Origin: a virus
Length of the DNA: 21,555 nt
Virus record (IMG/VR): IMGVR_UViG_3300028024_000026
Span: 1-21,555 of that record
Reading direction: 5' to 3' (one strand)
Below are positions 148-21,555 of the stretch, piece by piece (within the stretch, counting starts at the first letter, position 1; every line of letters begins with the position of its first letter). The notes under the pieces are model-generated. The model was not told where the DNA came from. It saw only the letters and a list, made by a program, of their open reading frames with translations, and made no database searches. Position numbers and translations under genes: made by a program.

Positions 148-840
148 TTACAGTAGTCGTCCCATCCGCTGAGCCCATTCAATGGGGTGCAGCGCGCCTT
201 TCTTCAGGTTGCAAATGGGATGCAGAAGTTGGATATTGAGAATGTCGTTCGATCCACCAAGGGCGAGCGGCACGTTGTGGTCAACGTGGTATTTCGTCTT
301 GATCGATTGCTTACATCCGCAGGCGCACTTGAACTTCTGCTTTACCAGCAATTCTTGAAGTTGCTCACCGGTATGCGAACCTTCCGCGCCCCTCAGCCTT
401 GCTCGCCGCAGATGACGGCCAGCCGATATGCGTTCCGGATGGCGCGCCCGATAGGCGTCCTGAAATTCTTTCCATCTTTCAGGATTTGCTGCTCTCCATT
501 CTGCCGTCTGCAGAAGACGCTCGACCTTTGTAGCATCAAGCCAAGCCGACCGAGCCACCGCATACTTTTCGGGATTCTTGCGTTTCGCCTCTACAATTGC
601 CTGCGCACATTGCTCAGGCTTCAGCGTGCGTCGTAAGCTCTCATCGGCCCGCTTCTTTTCGGAGGAATGAGATGGCCAAGATACCTTGAGGCACGTCTTG
701 CATTGCCCAGATGAAGTATGCCGCTGATCGAGATGCCCGTATTTACAAGGCTTCCCGGTGTAATAGAGTTTGAGTCCTTGCGCCTTGGCATCCTTCAATC
801 GGATGACCGCCCACGAATGGACTACAATAGCGTCAGCCAT
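148..840 (-). CDS. HNH endonuclease, probable free-standing homing-type enzyme
   Basis: 230 residues. The N-terminal part has a Cys/His cluster (C32, H36, C47, C50) typical of phage HNH proteins that begin with GKPCxxGH. The middle (about 80-150) has repeated NPEK/NPERW/HPER segments rich in Arg and Lys. The C-terminal HNH/zinc module has C172, C174 and C176, then H185-V-D-H188, N202 and HPICN at 207-211, with a basic end. Such enzymes nick or cut DNA with metal ions. The start at 840 has an AAGGTG ribosome site six bases upstream. The gene sits between the portal and head-morphogenesis genes, where selfish HNH genes are often inserted. A role in packaging, as for terminase-linked HNH nucleases, is less likely because it is not beside the terminase genes. 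Confidence 0.85.
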   Translation of the reverse strand: MADAIVVHSWAVIRLKDAKAQGLKLYYTGKPCKYGHLDQRHTSSGQCKTCLKVSWPSHSSEKKRADESLRRTLKPEQCAQAIVEAKRKNPEKYAVARSAWLDATKVERLLQTAEWRAANPERWKEFQDAYRARHPERISAGRHLRRARLRGAEGSHTGEQLQELLVKQKFKCACGCKQSIKTKYHVDHNVPLALGGSNDILNIQLLHPICNLKKGALHPIEWAQRMGRLL

Positions 841-875
841 GCTGTCACCTTGTTCAGTAAGGTAATGGTTGGTTA

Positions 876-910
876 GAAGCCTCAGGCGATTCGCAGTCGC
901 TTGGGGCTTC
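876..910. other. Inverted repeat in the portal-HNH gap
   Basis: The arms are GAAGCC (876-881) and GGCTTC (905-910). A nested GCGA/TCGC pair sits inside, in the 77-base gap between the portal stop and the HNH start. There is no T-run, so it is not a classic terminator. It could stabilise the portal message or mark the insertion edge of the HNH gene. Confidence 0.35.
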
Positions 911-917
911 GTCTATT

Positions 918-2360
918 TTACTTCCGAAAGTATCTGTTCCACATAGAATCTTTCGTCGTTTCAGGCTTTAAATCACTGATGTCTGGAAGATCCGTTTCGC
1001 CCGGAGGTGGCGCATTTTTCTCCATCTCTTCGGCTTCGGTAATCGCCTCATCAGTAATTCCACCGAACATGCCGGTGTTGGGCGCTGATGCCTTCAACTC
1101 CTTCATGCCATCACTGATCTTGAGCAGGCTCGCGTCCAGCGCGCCCGTGACGGCTTCGACGGTCGATTTCGCGATTTCCGATTTCTCCTTCTCGGACATC
1201 TCCTGAAGGTTTCGAAATTCAAACCCAAATTCGTCGGGCAATGGCTTACCCAGTGTCGACATGGACATTACCGACAAAAGCCGATGAAGAGGCCTTCTTA
1301 GCTTGCGCTCCTGCTGTTGTTTTACCTTCTCGTGATACTGCTTCATTTCTCCTTCACCGGTCGCGCTCAAACCAGTAGGAGACTGGCCGAACAACCGCGT
1401 GAAGGGCATGCCGAGTGCGCCGCACAACTGCTGCGCGAATTGCGTAAGCATGTCGGACAGGCCGGCGAAAGAGTACGCATGCGTTTCGAACTTGTCCTTC
1501 CCGTCGACAAACGTCATGCCTTCATTGGTCTGGGCGAGACGAGTGAACTCTATTTGTGCCTTGAGACCAGCGAGCGCAGGACCGCCTAAGGCGATGACAT
1601 CGCGCAGACCTTCAATGGTCATCGTGCGCAGATGCGCCTTATAGATCAGTTGACCGGCGCCGACGGATGAGCTGTCGAATGCGATCAGCCGGTCCCACAT
1701 CGGTTCGAGCACCGACAAGCCCCAGCCGTTTTCGCTCACGCGCTGATAGAACGGCAGATCCATGCCATCCAAGCGGATCACGCGCGAATAGTGAATCTTG
1801 GCTTTCGGGATTGCAGCGTAGTCGGCGATGACGTTGTAATAGACTGGCTTACCCATGTCGGGGCCGAATTCCTTTACCACATCATCAACTGGCGGCGAGA
1901 CCATCCAACGGTCGAGAATCAGCAGTCCCTTGAACTGGTCTTTGGCGATTGTCTCAACGCGCAGCGGCGTCGAAAAATCTTGCCCTTCGATCAGCATGAC
2001 GGCAAGCGAGCCGCCATACAGGTTCGCCCACTTGCCATCATCACAAAGAGCATCCCAGATCGCCAAACTCATCATGTCGCGCTCGATGAGAGTGACGTCT
2101 TCCGGCTCCATGCCAGAGATTTCAATGCCGGCGCGCGTCATGTCTTCCGGCATGGCGTCAACGGCTGCACGGACAATCCAACTGCCGCGGTATGCAGCCT
2201 CAAGCGCAATGCGGTTGCGACTTTGATACGACAGCGTGTAGGTCGAGCCAGACGACTGATTATTCGTACCCCAGCCAACATTCGCACCGAAGTTCGCGAA
2301 GCTGTCATTGGTGCGGACAGGCTGCTTCGCAACAGCTTGATTTGCTCTTTTGCGCGACAT
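918..2360 (-). CDS. Portal protein, DUF1073 family
   Basis: 480 residues, the normal size of the DUF1073 phage portal family. It should form the ring at the capsid vertex through which DNA is packaged and ejected. Recognisable segments are the N-terminal RGSWIVRAAVDAMPEDMTRAG (about 58-78), the central WGLSVLEPMWDRLIAFDSS, and the C-terminal third GALGMPFTRLFGQSPTGLSATGEG, followed by a helical region and an acidic, Pro-rich tail. Some databases attach an anti-CBASS label to this family; location directly after terL supports portal here. The ATG at 2360 has AAGGA about ten bases upstream and lies 44 bases after the terL stop. Confidence 0.9.
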   Translation of the reverse strand: MSRKRANQAVAKQPVRTNDSFANFGANVGWGTNNQSSGSTYTLSYQSRNRIALEAAYRGSWIVRAAVDAMPEDMTRAGIEISGMEPEDVTLIERDMMSLAIWDALCDDGKWANLYGGSLAVMLIEGQDFSTPLRVETIAKDQFKGLLILDRWMVSPPVDDVVKEFGPDMGKPVYYNVIADYAAIPKAKIHYSRVIRLDGMDLPFYQRVSENGWGLSVLEPMWDRLIAFDSSSVGAGQLIYKAHLRTMTIEGLRDVIALGGPALAGLKAQIEFTRLAQTNEGMTFVDGKDKFETHAYSFAGLSDMLTQFAQQLCGALGMPFTRLFGQSPTGLSATGEGEMKQYHEKVKQQQERKLRRPLHRLLSVMSMSTLGKPLPDEFGFEFRNLQEMSEKEKSEIAKSTVEAVTGALDASLLKISDGMKELKASAPNTGMFGGITDEAITEAEEMEKNAPPPGETDLPDISDLKPETTKDSMWNRYFRK

Positions 2361-15851: not shown

Positions 15852-16622
15852 ATGGATATCGATGCGTACCGCCGCAAGCGGCTTAAGGACCTGGTCGACA
15901 AAGAAGCGAGTGGCAACGTCGCGGAGTTCGCGCGCCGGCATGCTCAGGACGCAACTCGATTGCGGCAGATGCTTAATCCCAACTACCGAGAGGGGAAGGG
16001 TTTCAAAGAGCGCGTGGCGCGCAGGCTGGAGGAAGACCTTGGACTTCCGGCCCTATATTTCGACCTTGGCATCGAGGATGAAATATCGGGGTTCAAACCG
16101 GAAAATGGTAAAACCGGGAATAGAGGGGTAAATACACCCTTAATCGCCAGCGAACAAAAGCTATCCGGCGCTAATCTAGACTCCACTACCAATATAGAGT
16201 CGGGACCAGAGACCAAAGGGATCTTTCCCCTTATTTCCTGGGTCCAGGCCGGAGCCTGGGAAGAGATTGTGGATAATTTTGCGCCTGGGGATGCCGAGGA
16301 GTGGATAGCATCGCCGGTGAAGGTATCAGCCGCGTCCTTCTACCTTAAGGTGCGCGGAGAAAGCATGTTTGATCCTGCAGACCATCGATCATTCCGCGAG
16401 GGCGAAATCGTCCTGGTGGATCCGAATTGCGATGCCGAGAACGGCTCGTTTGTCGTCGTCAGACTGGACGATGACTCGGAAGCAACTTTCAAGCAGCTCG
16501 TTCTCGAGGGCGGGAAAAAGTATTTGAAAGCGCTGAATCCGACGTGGCCCAACCGGATCTTCGAAGTCAACGGTAATGCGACCATCTGCGGCGTGGTGCG
16601 TTCCAAGATCGTTAAATACTGA
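15852..16622 (+). CDS. cI: CI-like repressor with S24 autoprotease domain
   Basis: 256 residues from the ATG at 15852; upstream in-frame ATGs lie within the operators and are not used. The N-terminal DNA-binding domain is about residues 1-75. A polar linker follows, then the LexA/S24 peptidase: cleavage site A133-G134 in WVQAGAW, nucleophile S171 in VRGESM and lysine K214 in ATFKQL. It keeps the prophage silent and is inactivated by RecA-stimulated self-cleavage during DNA damage. No ribosome site is present. The -10 box six bases upstream suggests a leaderless mRNA, as for lambda cI from pRM. All active residues are intact. Confidence 0.92.
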   Translation: MDIDAYRRKRLKDLVDKEASGNVAEFARRHAQDATRLRQMLNPNYREGKGFKERVARRLEEDLGLPALYFDLGIEDEISGFKPENGKTGNRGVNTPLIASEQKLSGANLDSTTNIESGPETKGIFPLISWVQAGAWEEIVDNFAPGDAEEWIASPVKVSAASFYLKVRGESMFDPADHRSFREGEIVLVDPNCDAENGSFVVVRLDDDSEATFKQLVLEGGKKYLKALNPTWPNRIFEVNGNATICGVVRSKIVKY

Positions 16623-16746: not shown

Positions 16747-16775
16747 TTGACGACAGTAACGCCGCGCATTAGCAT
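16747..16775 (+). promoter_or_regulatory. Promoter for higBA
   Basis: The -35 TTGACG (16747-16752, five of six bases), a 17-base spacer and the -10 TAGCAT (16770-16775) end seven bases before the higB ATG. The toxin message would therefore be leaderless or nearly so. GTTAATAAC just upstream is a possible HigA half-operator. Confidence 0.6.
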
Positions 16776-16782
16776 ACTTGAC

Positions 16783-17061
16783 ATGATCCAAACGTTCCGG
16801 TGCGCCGACACTCAAACCCTTTTTGCTGGTCAGCGGGTAGCGCGTTTCGTCAATATTGAGGCGGTCGCCATGCGGAAACTTGCAATGCTGCACCGAGCTG
16901 CCGTGTTGGATGATCTCAGAATCCCGCCCAACAATCGTCTGAAGGCATTGAATCGAGATAGGGCCGGATCACATAGCATCCGTATTAATGACCAGTTTCG
17001 GGTGTGCTTTCGATTCGATGCTGGAAATGCTTTCGATGTGGAAATTGTTGACTACCATTAG
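16783..17061 (+). CDS. higB: HigB-type toxin (RelE superfamily mRNA interferase)
   Basis: 92 residues from the ATG at 16783. The pattern MIQTFRCADTQTLFAG near the start, then IPPNNRLKALNRDRAGSHSI and FRVCFRFDAGNAFDVEIVDYH, is that of HigB toxins, which cut mRNA on the ribosome. The ATG at 16747 is the longer alternative but lies in the promoter. The toxin gene comes first and the antitoxin gene second, as usual for hig. It lies between cI and the second operator cluster, the rexAB position in lambda, so it is expected to be expressed in lysogens, stabilising the prophage or excluding other phages. Confidence 0.92.
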   Translation: MIQTFRCADTQTLFAGQRVARFVNIEAVAMRKLAMLHRAAVLDDLRIPPNNRLKALNRDRAGSHSIRINDQFRVCFRFDAGNAFDVEIVDYH

Positions 17062-17077
17062 CCAAAGGAGTGGCACT

Positions 17078-17380
17078 ATGAACCGCGAAGTCGCCTACCC
17101 GACGCCAGGTGAAATCTTGACCGAGGAATTCCTGGCGCCAATGGGTATCAGCATGTACCGCCTTGCCAAAGATATCGGCGTGCCGCAGCAGCGTATCGGT
17201 GACATTGTGAACGGGCATCGCGCCATCACTGTGGACACGGGCCTGCGCCTGTCTCGGTATTTCGGAACCAGCGACGAGTTCTGGACTGGTCTGCAGCTCG
17301 ATTTTGACACTGTCACCGCGAAGGCTGAACTTGCGGACCGACTGGCCGGTATTCCTCGCTTTGAGCCGGAAGAAGTCTGA
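17078..17380 (+). CDS. higA: HigA-type antitoxin
   Basis: 100 residues from the ATG at 17078, with AAAGGAG eight bases upstream; the frame open further upstream lies inside higB. The Xre-type helix-turn-helix spans about 25-65 (MYRLAKDIGVPQQRIGDIVNG), followed by DTGLRLSRYFGTSDEFWTGLQ, typical of the HigA/VapI family. It binds and neutralises HigB and represses its own operon. It starts 16 bases after the higB stop, so the two are co-transcribed. Confidence 0.93.
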   Translation: MNREVAYPTPGEILTEEFLAPMGISMYRLAKDIGVPQQRIGDIVNGHRAITVDTGLRLSRYFGTSDEFWTGLQLDFDTVTAKAELADRLAGIPRFEPEEV

Positions 17381-17502: not shown

Positions 17503-17578
17503 GCGCCTATTGTTGCCCGAAATGCACACCCATCGGGCGAAAGCAAAAGTTCTCTAAAAAAATTCGACCACGTGCGAT

Positions 17579-17616
17579 AGCTTTTGCTTGCGTTCTTCAA
17601 AAGCACTTGCTATTGT
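17579..17616 (+). promoter_or_regulatory. pL-like promoter with two operators (OL)
   Basis: The -35 TTGCGT (17588-17593), a 17-base spacer and the extended -10 TGC-TATTGT (17611-17616) lie between operator-like sites AGCTTTTGCT (17579-17588) and AGCACTTGCT (17602-17611). The last T of each site is the first T of each box, and the centres are 23 bases apart. The cro promoter shows the same numbers, so CI and Cro probably bind here too. Transcription would run into 17660 and beyond. Confidence 0.7.
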
Positions 17617-17659
17617 TCAGTCAAGCAAGCAAACACCACATCAGACCAGGGGCAGCGAA

Positions 17660-18182: not shown

Positions 18183-18195
18183 CAACATCGTAGCA

Positions 18196-18862
18196 CCCGC
18201 CCCGGCAGAGCCGGATCGCGGAAGGATCTTTAAGCGAATCTAGCAGAGATACCCGCAAGGGAGCGCTCAACGCCCTACCGCTGAAAAGATCGGGGCCTAT
18301 CAACCAAGTGCCTGGCTCCCAGATGGGGCTATAGAACACTTGGAAGATCGATAACACCGCAGCAGACCGTGAGCCGGTTCACCGGAAGTAGCACGGCTGC
18401 TGCGAAGCAGTTTTCAAGAGAACGCACCGCATTCCCTGCCACAGTAGTCCGGCGTAAGGCGTTGCTTGGTCATGGGACTTTAGCCCTGACTTCACGGCAC
18501 GTACACCAGTAGGAAACTCCCTGGTATAGCGTGGTGTGTTCTCTTGAAAGTTGCATTGAATTGTCCTCCTCGAGCGCGAAAGCGTGTGGATGCCCTGCTA
18601 ATCGAGTAAGGCAGGGACTGAAGGTGCCACCAGTAATAAAGGCGAACGACGTACGTCTAGTAGGCGCTTAGCTCCGTCCGACTTGCCGCCGTAAGCGGCT
18701 CCGAATACCCACGAGAGGGAATGATCCGATGCGCTTTCTTGCCAGCACATCGGGGACCCAATAAAGCGACAAGATTAACCGAGGCGCTTGGCAGCTGGAA
18801 AATCGGGGATTGGTCATAGCTAAACTGCCACTAATTTATCTCAGTGCGCTAGGCATTGAGGA
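18196..18862 (+). ncRNA. Candidate large structured noncoding RNA (~0.65 kb)
   Basis: No ORF fits 18183-18880, but helices fill it. A 20-bp helix pairs 18411-18430 with 18531-18550, with three G-U pairs and no mismatch. Another pairs 18358-18365 and 18367-18371 with 18392-18404, capped by CCGG-UUCA-CCGG. Hairpins include 18202-18214; 18252-18261 (GCAA loop); 18304-18310/18337-18343 with an inner helix 18314-18319/18325-18330; 18574-18585 (GAAA loop); 18593-18599/18610-18616; 18685-18699; 18725-18731/18748-18754; and 18840-18847/18853-18860. Bases 18569-18573 can pair with loop bases 18602-18606. All wobbles are U-G in the plus sense. Size and phage setting recall the large ornate RNAs GOLLD and ROOL; identity is unproven and the ends are approximate. 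Confidence 0.6.
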
Positions 18863-18880
18863 CTACTACCGGAGAAGAAA

Positions 18881-19255
18881 ATGCAAGCAACCCCGTTCGC
18901 ACGAGCAAACATGATGATGGCCGCCATTGCAGCAGCGATGAGCCTGGGTGGTGAAGCGCAACGCGCCGCGATGACTGGCATCGGCCCGTATGTTTCGCGC
19001 GGCAAGGGTCGCGGCAAGCTCGCGAAGTGGCTGGGCGGCTCGACACGCAGCAAGTACGCCCCGCACATTGGCAAGAAAGAACAGGAGCGCGCTAAGCGCT
19101 GCTACATGGAAAGCCATTTCCCGGTGCTCGATAAAACGCCTGGACAGAGTAATCCGTGCGCACTGCGCAGCGCTCCAGTGATGTGCCAGATGAGCAAGAC
19201 CACGCACGAAGCGTACCTCGATGCGCGGCAGCAAGAGTACGAGAGCGTGTTTTAA
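18881..19255 (+). CDS. Hypothetical phage protein
   Basis: 124 residues with GGAG seven bases before the ATG. The N-terminus has Ala/Met-rich helices (ARANMMMAAIAAAMSL), then a Gly/Lys/Arg-rich loop (YVSRGKGRGKLAKWLGGSTR) that looks RNA- or DNA-binding. A polar C-terminal half carries two Cys. No family is recognised. It follows the structured RNA by 20 bases, so the last hairpin (18840-18860) may form part of its leader, and a link between this basic protein and that RNA is possible. Confidence 0.7.
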   Translation: MQATPFARANMMMAAIAAAMSLGGEAQRAAMTGIGPYVSRGKGRGKLAKWLGGSTRSKYAPHIGKKEQERAKRCYMESHFPVLDKTPGQSNPCALRSAPVMCQMSKTTHEAYLDARQQEYESVF

Positions 19256-20310: not shown

Positions 20311-20332
20311 GGCCCGGCGTAATGGGCCTTTT
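20311..20332 (+). terminator. Likely rho-independent terminator
   Basis: GGCCC (20311-20315) and GGGCC (20324-20328) with an eight-base loop are followed by TTTT. The stem is short but all GC. It is nine bases after the stop of the preceding gene and would end the pL operon unless antiterminated. Confidence 0.55.
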
Positions 20333-20335
20333 CAA

Positions 20336-20471
20336 TGGATCGCTTTGTACGGCGTGGAGCCTTCACGAGCTAAGAAGCGCCGAGTTGGTCAAGGTACCGG
20401 GCCTGCCGTACCTTGACTGGCGTAGAGGACAACGAGTCTTAGGACAGAATCCTCGTTTGCAGAGCGATCCA
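20336..20471 (+). ncRNA. Four-way-junction structured RNA element (136 nt)
   Basis: The closing helix pairs 20336-20349 with 20458-20471 over 14 unbroken pairs, two of them U-G wobbles in the plus sense. Three hairpins radiate from the junction. They are 20350-20354/20378-20382 (with inner 20358-20360/20369-20371); 20388-20397/20408-20417, a perfect 10-bp stem; and 20431-20436/20452-20457. Together they form a cloverleaf-like fold. The wobble sense supports transcription on the plus strand. It lies between a terminator and the secreted-protein gene, so it could be a small RNA or a 5' regulatory leader. It is not a tRNA: no T-loop, anticodon arm or CCA is present. Confidence 0.6.
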
Positions 20472-20526
20472 CTGAACAGCAGTAACGGCAACGTGACCGA
20501 CTCACGCACATACGAGGAAAATAAAA

Positions 20527-21258
20527 ATGAAACGCAGCATCTTGGCAGTATCAATTCTGGCTTTAGCAATCAGCGCACCGGCGTTCGCCGAGCCATCCGC
20601 GGTCACTGCAGGCGGCTTTTCCAACATTAATGTGAATACCGCGATTAGCGGCAACGTCACGGCAGTCAACGGCGGTTTCAGCGAGTCGCAGGCTACGCAA
20701 AATCAGACGGCATTCGGCAGCATCACATCGACGGCTACCAAAGGCACAACGTCTATCGGCGGCCAGAACGTTCCGACGCAGACGGTCGGTACGGTTGGCA
20801 CGGTCGGGGTGACGTCGAACAGCAGCGCATGGAACTATTCGACTGGCAGTGCAGGCGGCAGCGCGTCAGTAGTAGGCGGCGCAGGCGCGATTGTGAGCGG
20901 GACCAACGCTATCCAGGGTGTGGCAGCTGGCAGCGGATACGCCGGAGTAGGCGCGACCGAAGCGATCACCGCGGGCACGAACGAGGGCGGTTATACCGCA
21001 TCGGTCGCCAATGCTAACTTCGGGTCGACACAAACATACGACAGCATCAAGTCGGGCAGCACGGCCTCGGCTGGTGTTAGCTCGGCTCTGGCAGGTGGCG
21101 CTACTGCTAGCAACACATCGGGCGTCATGACGGTGAACGGCGCAGCACTCAGCACGCCGGATACGCTGTCGATCGGCAACAGCGGAACCTTCACGGCAAC
21201 GGGTACCGCGAGCACGGGTGTCAACACCAACGCAACGGTTGGCGATAACCACGAATAA
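20527..21258 (+). CDS. Secreted Gly/Ser/Thr/Ala-rich protein
   Basis: 243 residues with a clear Sec signal peptide (MKRSILAVSILALAISAPAFA, cut before EPS). The mature part has almost no charged or large residues and is built of Gly, Ser, Thr, Ala, Val and Asn, with loosely repeated GxxxA/TxG units (VGTVGTVGVTSNSS, SVVGGAGAIVSGTN). Such composition suggests an extended beta-structured or adhesin-like exported protein. GAGG lies upstream of the ATG. No family is recognised. Export from a phage gene fits either lysogenic conversion of the host surface or an envelope-phase late function. Confidence 0.75.
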   Translation: MKRSILAVSILALAISAPAFAEPSAVTAGGFSNINVNTAISGNVTAVNGGFSESQATQNQTAFGSITSTATKGTTSIGGQNVPTQTVGTVGTVGVTSNSSAWNYSTGSAGGSASVVGGAGAIVSGTNAIQGVAAGSGYAGVGATEAITAGTNEGGYTASVANANFGSTQTYDSIKSGSTASAGVSSALAGGATASNTSGVMTVNGAALSTPDTLSIGNSGTFTATGTASTGVNTNATVGDNHE

Positions 21259-21318: not shown

Positions 21319-21555
21319 ATGAAAAAGAATATCGCAGCAATCGCACTCATGTGCGTAACGACTGCAGCATTTGCCGATTTGACGTCGACCGTAAGCTCGA
21401 ACGTCGCAGCTACGACGTCCGCGCAGAATGCTGGCAATGCTCAAAACATCAACTTCAACAGTCCAGGCAACACAGACGCGACGATCCACAGCGCACCGAC
21501 GGTCTACACGCCGTCGATGCCGGGAAGCTTTGCCCAGGCAAATTGCATGATGGGC
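21319..21555 (+). CDS. Secreted protein, N-terminal part (cut by window edge)
   Basis: 79 codons from the ATG at 21319, with GGGG seven bases upstream, are open to the window end. A short signal peptide (MKKNIAAIALMCVTTAAFA) is followed by an Asn/Ser/Thr/Ala-rich stretch like that of the previous gene, then APTVYTPSMPGSFAQANCMM. The latter recalls small exported phage proteins found near lysis or DNA-transfer genes, but the family is not certain. It is probably co-transcribed with the preceding secreted protein, 60 bases upstream. Confidence 0.65.
   Translation, partial: MKKNIAAIALMCVTTAAFADLTSTVSSNVAATTSAQNAGNAQNINFNSPGNTDATIHSAPTVYTPSMPGSFAQANCMMG

Follow-up and report, generated by a model that had tools for sequence, protein, structure and literature searches.

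A modular structured RNA with a boxA-like element in the presumed early operon of a Paraburkholderia-type phage

The DNA analyzed here, called the window in the following, is a 21,555-bp virus contig of IMG/VR (record IMGVR_UViG_3300028024_000026) from a Paraburkholderia-type phage. Its positions 18189-18875 comprise about 0.68 kb of untranslated sequence. We read this stretch, with a probability of roughly 0.6, as a modular structured RNA in a repressor-controlled early operon, in which a boxA-like element allows transcription to read through and the folded modules are carried as cargo. Transcription of the stretch as part of the early operon is suggested by its sequence context. The RNA matches no described RNA family. 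Rfam searches of the window gave no match at the gathering threshold or at E≤10, GOLLD and ROOL included; 16 related loci gave only tRNA matches and no GOLLD or ROOL, and a literature search retrieved no description of this RNA.

About 40 other loci of phages or prophages (designated below by L numbers, genomes by G numbers) have similar non-coding stretches in their early operons. They are mainly from Paraburkholderia and Caballeronia, but also from distant Burkholderiaceae. The relatives have folded modules in common, not genes (see Table 1 for the modules of the window). The first of them were identified via the downstream protein and short DNA patterns. The RNA is present in IMG/VR contigs (L002-L014 and L033-L050, except L004) and in Paraburkholderia dilworthii WSM3556, P. 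phenoliruptrix LMG 22037 and Caballeronia glathei DSM 50014. It was also found in 8 of 146 genomes, of which two had been identified previously and six were additional Paraburkholderia genomes. Among 398 Burkholderiaceae genomes, 13 matched a covariance model of module A, 10 of them distant, and 3 matched a model of module B. When a refined module A model was run on 399 order-level and 369 class-level genomes, only P. dilworthii matched; as few candidates were scored by the first-look filter, absence in this wider search is weak evidence. The RNA had no BLAST match among INPHARED phages or PLSDB plasmids.

Covariation was looked for in these homologues and is present in module A, P4 and module B. 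In the three modules, 94.5-95.4% of base pairs are kept through many double changes. The covariation scores were reached by 0 of 500 shuffles, a control that ignores relatedness, and structures slid along the alignment, a control that keeps relatedness, were only 32-48% paired. For module A (18248-18343, 22 sequences), standard pairs make up 95.2% of pair cells and 20 of 27 pairs are double-changed, with a covariation score of 0.54 versus 0.17 after shuffling (0/500) and 34-42% pairing in slid structures. Double changes affect 3 of the 4 pairs in its AGCG stem and 11 of the 12 in its second hairpin (helices 5 and 6). P4 (18 sequences) is 95.4% paired, with 14 of 17 pairs double-changed and a nearly invariant internal loop, and module B (21 distinct sequences) is 94.5% paired, with double changes at 22 of 36 pairs. 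Models were used to fit the larger alignments; a sequence-only MAFFT alignment of nine already had double changes at 16 of the 36 module B pairs. The GCCC/GGGC pseudoknot of module A was absent from the model used for alignment and thus played no part in the fitting. All 22 sequences retain its pairing, and each of its four pairs is double-changed (variants GTCC/GGAC, GCGC/GCGC, CCTC/GAGG, CCGT/ACGG and GCGT/ACGC).

G-U cells outnumber A-C cells by 48:1 in module A and 79:11 in module B, and the functional molecule is therefore the plus-strand RNA. Together, the alignments show a conserved predicted plus-strand structure that includes the pseudoknot. A first-pass annotation of the window had proposed a large plus-strand structured RNA in a repressor-proximal (pL-like) operon, and the covariation, the G-U/A-C ratio and the homology of modules agree with it. 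Its individual structures could also be located. The long helix is found base for base, with 20 bp between 18411-18430 (TTTTCAAGAGAACGCACCGC) and 18531-18550 (GTGGTGTGTTCTCTTGAAAG), and all three of its non-Watson-Crick positions are G-U or U-G in the plus sense. The 13-bp hairpin with the UUCA cap maps to 18357-18404, and the GCAA tetraloop to 18252-18261. The stretch was described as gene-free, and its reading frames bear this out: a single stretch of 75 codons is open in frame 0, and the remaining frames have 13-15 stops. Three features go beyond what had been noted before: the pseudoknot, the exchangeability of the modules and the boxA 3' of the first hairpin.

The annotation had also argued for a transcribed RNA rather than palindromic DNA. 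Folding energy is of no help here, since both strands fold significantly (plus strand -259 kcal/mol, z = -3.1; minus strand -271, z = -4.5) and the strand can therefore not be assigned from it; as strand evidence it was rejected, the minus strand folding even better. That the minus strand folds well too would fit palindromic DNA, a decayed gene or chance folding. The compensatory changes, the G-U bias, the pseudoknot and the lack of a shared reading frame refute these explanations, and we give them practically no credence. A helix closing the whole RNA from 5' to 3' (GUAG/CUAC) occurs at some loci only, is inconsistent, and is not claimed.

The boxA-like element is a regular companion of the folded modules. 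Among 19 loci picked by module B alone, 18 have an upstream boxA with at most two mismatches from GCTCTTTAAC, compared to 2.4 expected from dinucleotide shuffles. The sole exception is L007, which has GGATCTTTCAAAA. The element is equally regular in the module A set. By inspection, it lies immediately 3' of the first hairpin, and this arrangement is conserved across the relatives. The 5' hairpin has homologues in L011, L005, L035, L049, L050, L038, L009 and L025, and its stem changes remain paired (for example CCGGC/GCCGG versus CCAAC/GTTGG). Hairpin followed by boxA is also the order in the host rrn leaders, and the rrn antiterminator is arranged as boxB-boxA-boxC (PMC10250234). The host rrn boxA is TGCTCTTTAAAA / GTTCTTTAACAA. 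In the rRNA operons of two genomes that bear the element, the boxA of the 16S leader reads TGTTCTTTAAAAACTAACAGCCGATAAG and TGCTCTTTAAAAACTAACAGCCGATAAG, and that of the spacer GTTCTTTAACAATCTGGAAGAAG or GTTCTTTAACAATCAGGAAGAAG. The boxA of distant phages resembles either kind: CGCTCCTTAAAAACTCAGTTACCGATAG of L062 is similar to the host leader TGCTCTTTAAAAACTAACAGCCGATAAG, and CGCTCTTTAACAAGTCGGAAGAGATAG of L058 to the host spacer GTTCTTTAACAATCAGGAAGAAGTAG.

A minimal version of the RNA is found in L057-L066. Here, a sigma-70-like promoter (TTGACA-17-TTTAAT in L057, TTGACA-N17-GATTAT in L062, TTGACC-N17-TATAAT in L061) lies about 45-50 bp 5' of boxA. The 5' hairpin comes directly after this promoter, then boxA, module A and usually P4, and a ribosome-binding site leads into a gene that varies from locus to locus. 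In L060, a repressor with helix-turn-helix and S24-peptidase domains is encoded upstream on the same strand. The long version, too, can lie directly 3' of a promoter with no intervening gene, as in L011 and L017. We also observed a conserved untranslated element (CACCUCCCCGGCGAGGGAACGCCCCCGAUGAUGCAGGCGUGACGGCCGCCAG) 3' of the first gene in L060, L061, L062 and L066, on the strand of the RNA element. Since the RNA is located directly 5' of a ribosome-binding site at many loci, a riboswitch-like cis regulator of the following gene was considered. The conserved modules are far from the start codon, however, and a switch for a single gene is rejected because the downstream genes differ between loci that share the RNA; this explanation is very improbable. 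The genes 3' of the RNA vary in L007, L009, L012, L013, L022 and L060-L066, all of which retain the RNA.

A presence scan gave the order boxA, module A, P4, an arm, module B and then modules of the C, D or E type, each being present or absent independently. Judged by sequence comparison, the modules are exchanged between phages and are not tied to a particular downstream gene. Module B carries the conserved strands AGUANYYCGGCGUAAGG and ACACCAGUAGRAARCUCCCUG. The 3' part of the RNA (18557-18865) consists of modules with sequence homology to L043, L021, L034 and L040, and module C also occurs in L007/L008, L033, L044, L045 and L046. L007 had been taken for a case of module shuffling (C before B), but this was withdrawn because the locus appears to consist of two tandem units, each with a hairpin and a boxA-like site. 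Two RNA units in apparent tandem, both equipped with a 5' hairpin and a boxA-like site, are seen at L007 3300-4398 and L046 5600-6700.

At some loci, the arm is related to tRNA. In L007/L008 and L035 it folds like a tRNA whose anticodon loop has 6 nt (ARAGORN; Rfam tRNA score of 44 bits for L007), and in genome G009 it is a tRNA with a long variable arm and an 8-nt anticodon loop. In L007, L035 and G009, the length of the anticodon loop is wrong for a functional tRNA. The window copy has no recognizable tRNA domain. In L026 (genome G009, 672-1220, minus strand), a 182-codon open reading frame splits the RNA shortly 3' of boxA; by eye its product resembles the homing-endonuclease type, but Pfam assigned no family. 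A tRNA-like module E (GGAAUGCGCAGRCUGAUGCGC ... CYGGAGAUCAGYRCCRG) was observed in L027 (560-960), L013, L022, L025 and L060, and at two sites in L071 (1494-1602 and 1760-1892). It also occurs in enterobacterial phages such as P1, HK629, mEp460 and P7, in Cronobacter phage ES2 and Pseudomonas phage AH02, and within a tRNA cluster in CMS-2020a. Module E has no Rfam match and looks like a separate, widespread phage RNA.

The tRNA-like parts suggest that the RNA might act as a decoy or mimic, with arms that capture host or defense factors acting on tRNA or rRNA precursors (anticodon nucleases, RNases or Nus factors) and with module swapping as the trace of an arms race. The pseudo-tRNAs with 6- and 8-nt anticodon loops within the arm, the recurrence of module E, which P1 and further enterobacterial phages have as well, and the rrn-like boxA would all fit. 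As the window copy is devoid of a recognizable tRNA domain and module A and P4 are unlike any tRNA, we judge this improbable.

Size, phage location, extensive covarying folds and the tRNA domains of some copies (L007/L008, L035, G009) would also be compatible with a trans-acting ornate RNA similar to GOLLD and ROOL, and tRNAs are carried in the linker of GOLLD as well (PMC12286853). Such an RNA would be processed from the early transcript and form a stable particle, perhaps an RNA-only oligomer; boxA would merely ensure full synthesis and folding, as for rRNA. The GOLLD/ROOL precedent cited in the first-pass annotation is a fair analogy with respect to size, phage setting and tRNAs in some copies, but membership in either class did not follow from the covariance models, which were unmatched even at E≤10. 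The composition is too variable for one symmetric assembly, minimal copies measure only about 0.2 kb, and the RNA lacks its own terminator and abuts the ribosome site of the next gene. We consider a trans-acting particle, and likewise a boxA that serves only its synthesis and folding, rather unlikely.

In the reading that we prefer, the nascent boxA would bind host NusB-S10 and form an rRNA-type antitermination complex. This would let RNA polymerase pass through 0.2-1.2 kb of structured, untranslated RNA unimpeded by Rho and continue into the early genes. The folded modules would be the functional cargo of the protected stretch, swapped one for another among phages. In Escherichia coli, a 567-bp non-coding insert in a 5' untranslated region causes Rho termination, which is relieved by an upstream rrn boxA in a NusB- and SuhB-dependent manner (PMC4807359). 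By analogy, this reporter is a direct precedent for boxA protection.

Several observations weigh against boxA-dependent read-through. The rRNA Nus complex has been argued to serve maturation more than antitermination (PMC4807359). The boxA of the window, GATCTTTAAG, has two mismatches from GCTCTTTAAC. On the minus strand of the window, where the opposite early operon lies, no site resembling boxA was detected, and the RNA is single-copy per phage genome where found, unlike nutL/nutR in both respects (of 10 phage records, six have a module A match, and each of these has only one). Finally, boxA alone would not demand such conserved folds, and the task of the fold itself is left unexplained.

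The folds would have a direct role if the RNA were a nut- or put-type antiterminator, with the modules (the module A pseudoknot and P4) and boxA binding RNA polymerase or NusA and rendering it terminator-resistant along the early operon. The minimal form, a promoter-proximal leader of 0.2 kb with hairpin, boxA, module A and often P4 that is combined with differing operators and first genes, would suit this role. It would also fit that no conserved N-like protein was seen beside the RNA (none was detected by Pfam or PHROGs among the few genes tested). But many boxA-bearing relatives are without module A or P4, or have replacements for them, and long versions sit after one or two genes. HK022 put measures about 70 nt, has two hairpins, does not depend on boxA and antiterminates without a phage protein. 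Both put and nut sit in both early operons, whereas the RNA was found as a single copy and in one of them. We consider an antiterminator of this type rather unlikely. Tentatively, and less likely than not, the RNA would stand for a new class in which large modular phage RNAs use the transcription and folding machinery of host rRNA (boxA and Nus factors) to produce an rRNA-like, tRNA-bearing particle early in infection, with exchangeable RNA parts that phages share.

Table 1. Positions of the RNA modules and of neighboring features in the window
Feature	Position	Strand	Remarks
CI-type repressor with S24 peptidase domain	15852-16622	+
HigB/antitoxin-like pair	16747-17377	+	3' of repressor, followed by small early genes
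Putative pL-like promoter/operator region of early operon	17575-17620	+	suggested by homology to L011/L017
5' hairpin	18189-18222	+	stem within 18197-18221; boxB position of rrn leaders
boxA-like element GATCTTTAAG	18225-18234	+	directly 3' of 5' hairpin
Module A core	18248-18301	+	closing GATA/TATC, CCC/GGG hairpin with GCAA loop, AGCG/CGCT stem, pseudoknot
Module A pseudoknot	GCCC 18272-18275 with GGGC 18293-18296	+
Module A second hairpin	18304-18343	+	conserved CAGAU loop and CUAUAGAAC strand
P4 arm	18355-18406	+	13-bp hairpin, UUCA cap in window, asymmetric internal loop AG / (A,G)(A,U)GUAG
Module B	18407-18554	+	domain closed by long helix 18411-18430/18531-18550
3' module with most of module C (CCGACUUGCCGCCGUAAGCGGCUC, 18676-18718)	18553-18710	+	L043 match, nhmmer E = 1.6e-11
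3' module F	18694-18831	+	homologous in L021 (G002), E = 2.3e-5, and L034, E = 0.003
3'-terminal hairpin CUCAGUGC...GCAUUGAG	18830-18875	+	L040 homologue, E = 7e-4
Downstream open reading frame, 124 amino acids	18881-19255	+	outside RNA; unrelated genes in its place in most relatives

The RNA lies in a gene-free gap of 698 bases between the end of a 65-codon open reading frame (18182) and the start of the 124-codon frame (ATG at 18881), for which no Pfam or PHROGs family was found. Its terminal hairpin runs into the Shine-Dalgarno region of that gene. Window positions 17556-17619 are 78% identical to the promoter region located directly 5' of the RNA in L011/L017. Terminase and portal are encoded on the minus strand. 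Further downstream in the early operon, two adjoining genes (20527-21258 and 21320-21555) encode proteins with signal-peptide-like starts, the first of them a low-complexity repeat protein without family match. A second untranslated, strongly folding stretch of the same operon (20322-20482, z = -4.9) has the closing helix UUCA.UGGAUCGCUUUG/CAGAGCGAUCCA.CUGAA and resembles a module 3' of the pseudo-tRNA in L026 (nhmmer, E = 1e-4). In the C. glathei prophage (L017, about 2690-2890), a palindromic untranslated stretch was noted 3' of an acyl-carrier-protein-like gene.

To our knowledge, few large phage RNAs have been found, and none has an explained job. The present RNA comes with about 40 loci, alignments, covariance models, promoters and boxA as a handle, so that a direct question is now open to test, namely whether phages use the rRNA antitermination and chaperone complex for big non-coding RNAs. 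RNA domains, including tRNA-derived ones, pass between phages like protein genes.

Compared to known systems, the RNA shares with GOLLD and ROOL the character of a phage-encoded ornate RNA (0.6-0.9 kb) associated with tRNA, but differs by its other modules, its place in an early operon and its extremely mosaic composition, in addition to the lack of a model match. HK022 put is likewise a structured RNA early in the pL transcript whose function is independent of the downstream gene; its sequence and folds are different, and antitermination is only hypothetical for the RNA described here. With lambda nut, the RNA has in common a boxA in an early operon, close to a pL-type promoter that adjoins the repressor. 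It differs in its large conserved folds and in having been found in one early operon only; no compact, boxB-like hairpin was seen directly 3' of boxA, and no N gene was recognized among the few genes tested. The rrn antiterminator also has a boxA of the same sequence 3' of a hairpin and then a long untranslated structured RNA, sometimes with tRNA domains, but that RNA is rRNA, whereas the phage RNA belongs to a repressor-controlled early operon and has novel folded modules followed by protein genes. The RNA would work like an rrn leader or a lambda nut site, but with large new folds.
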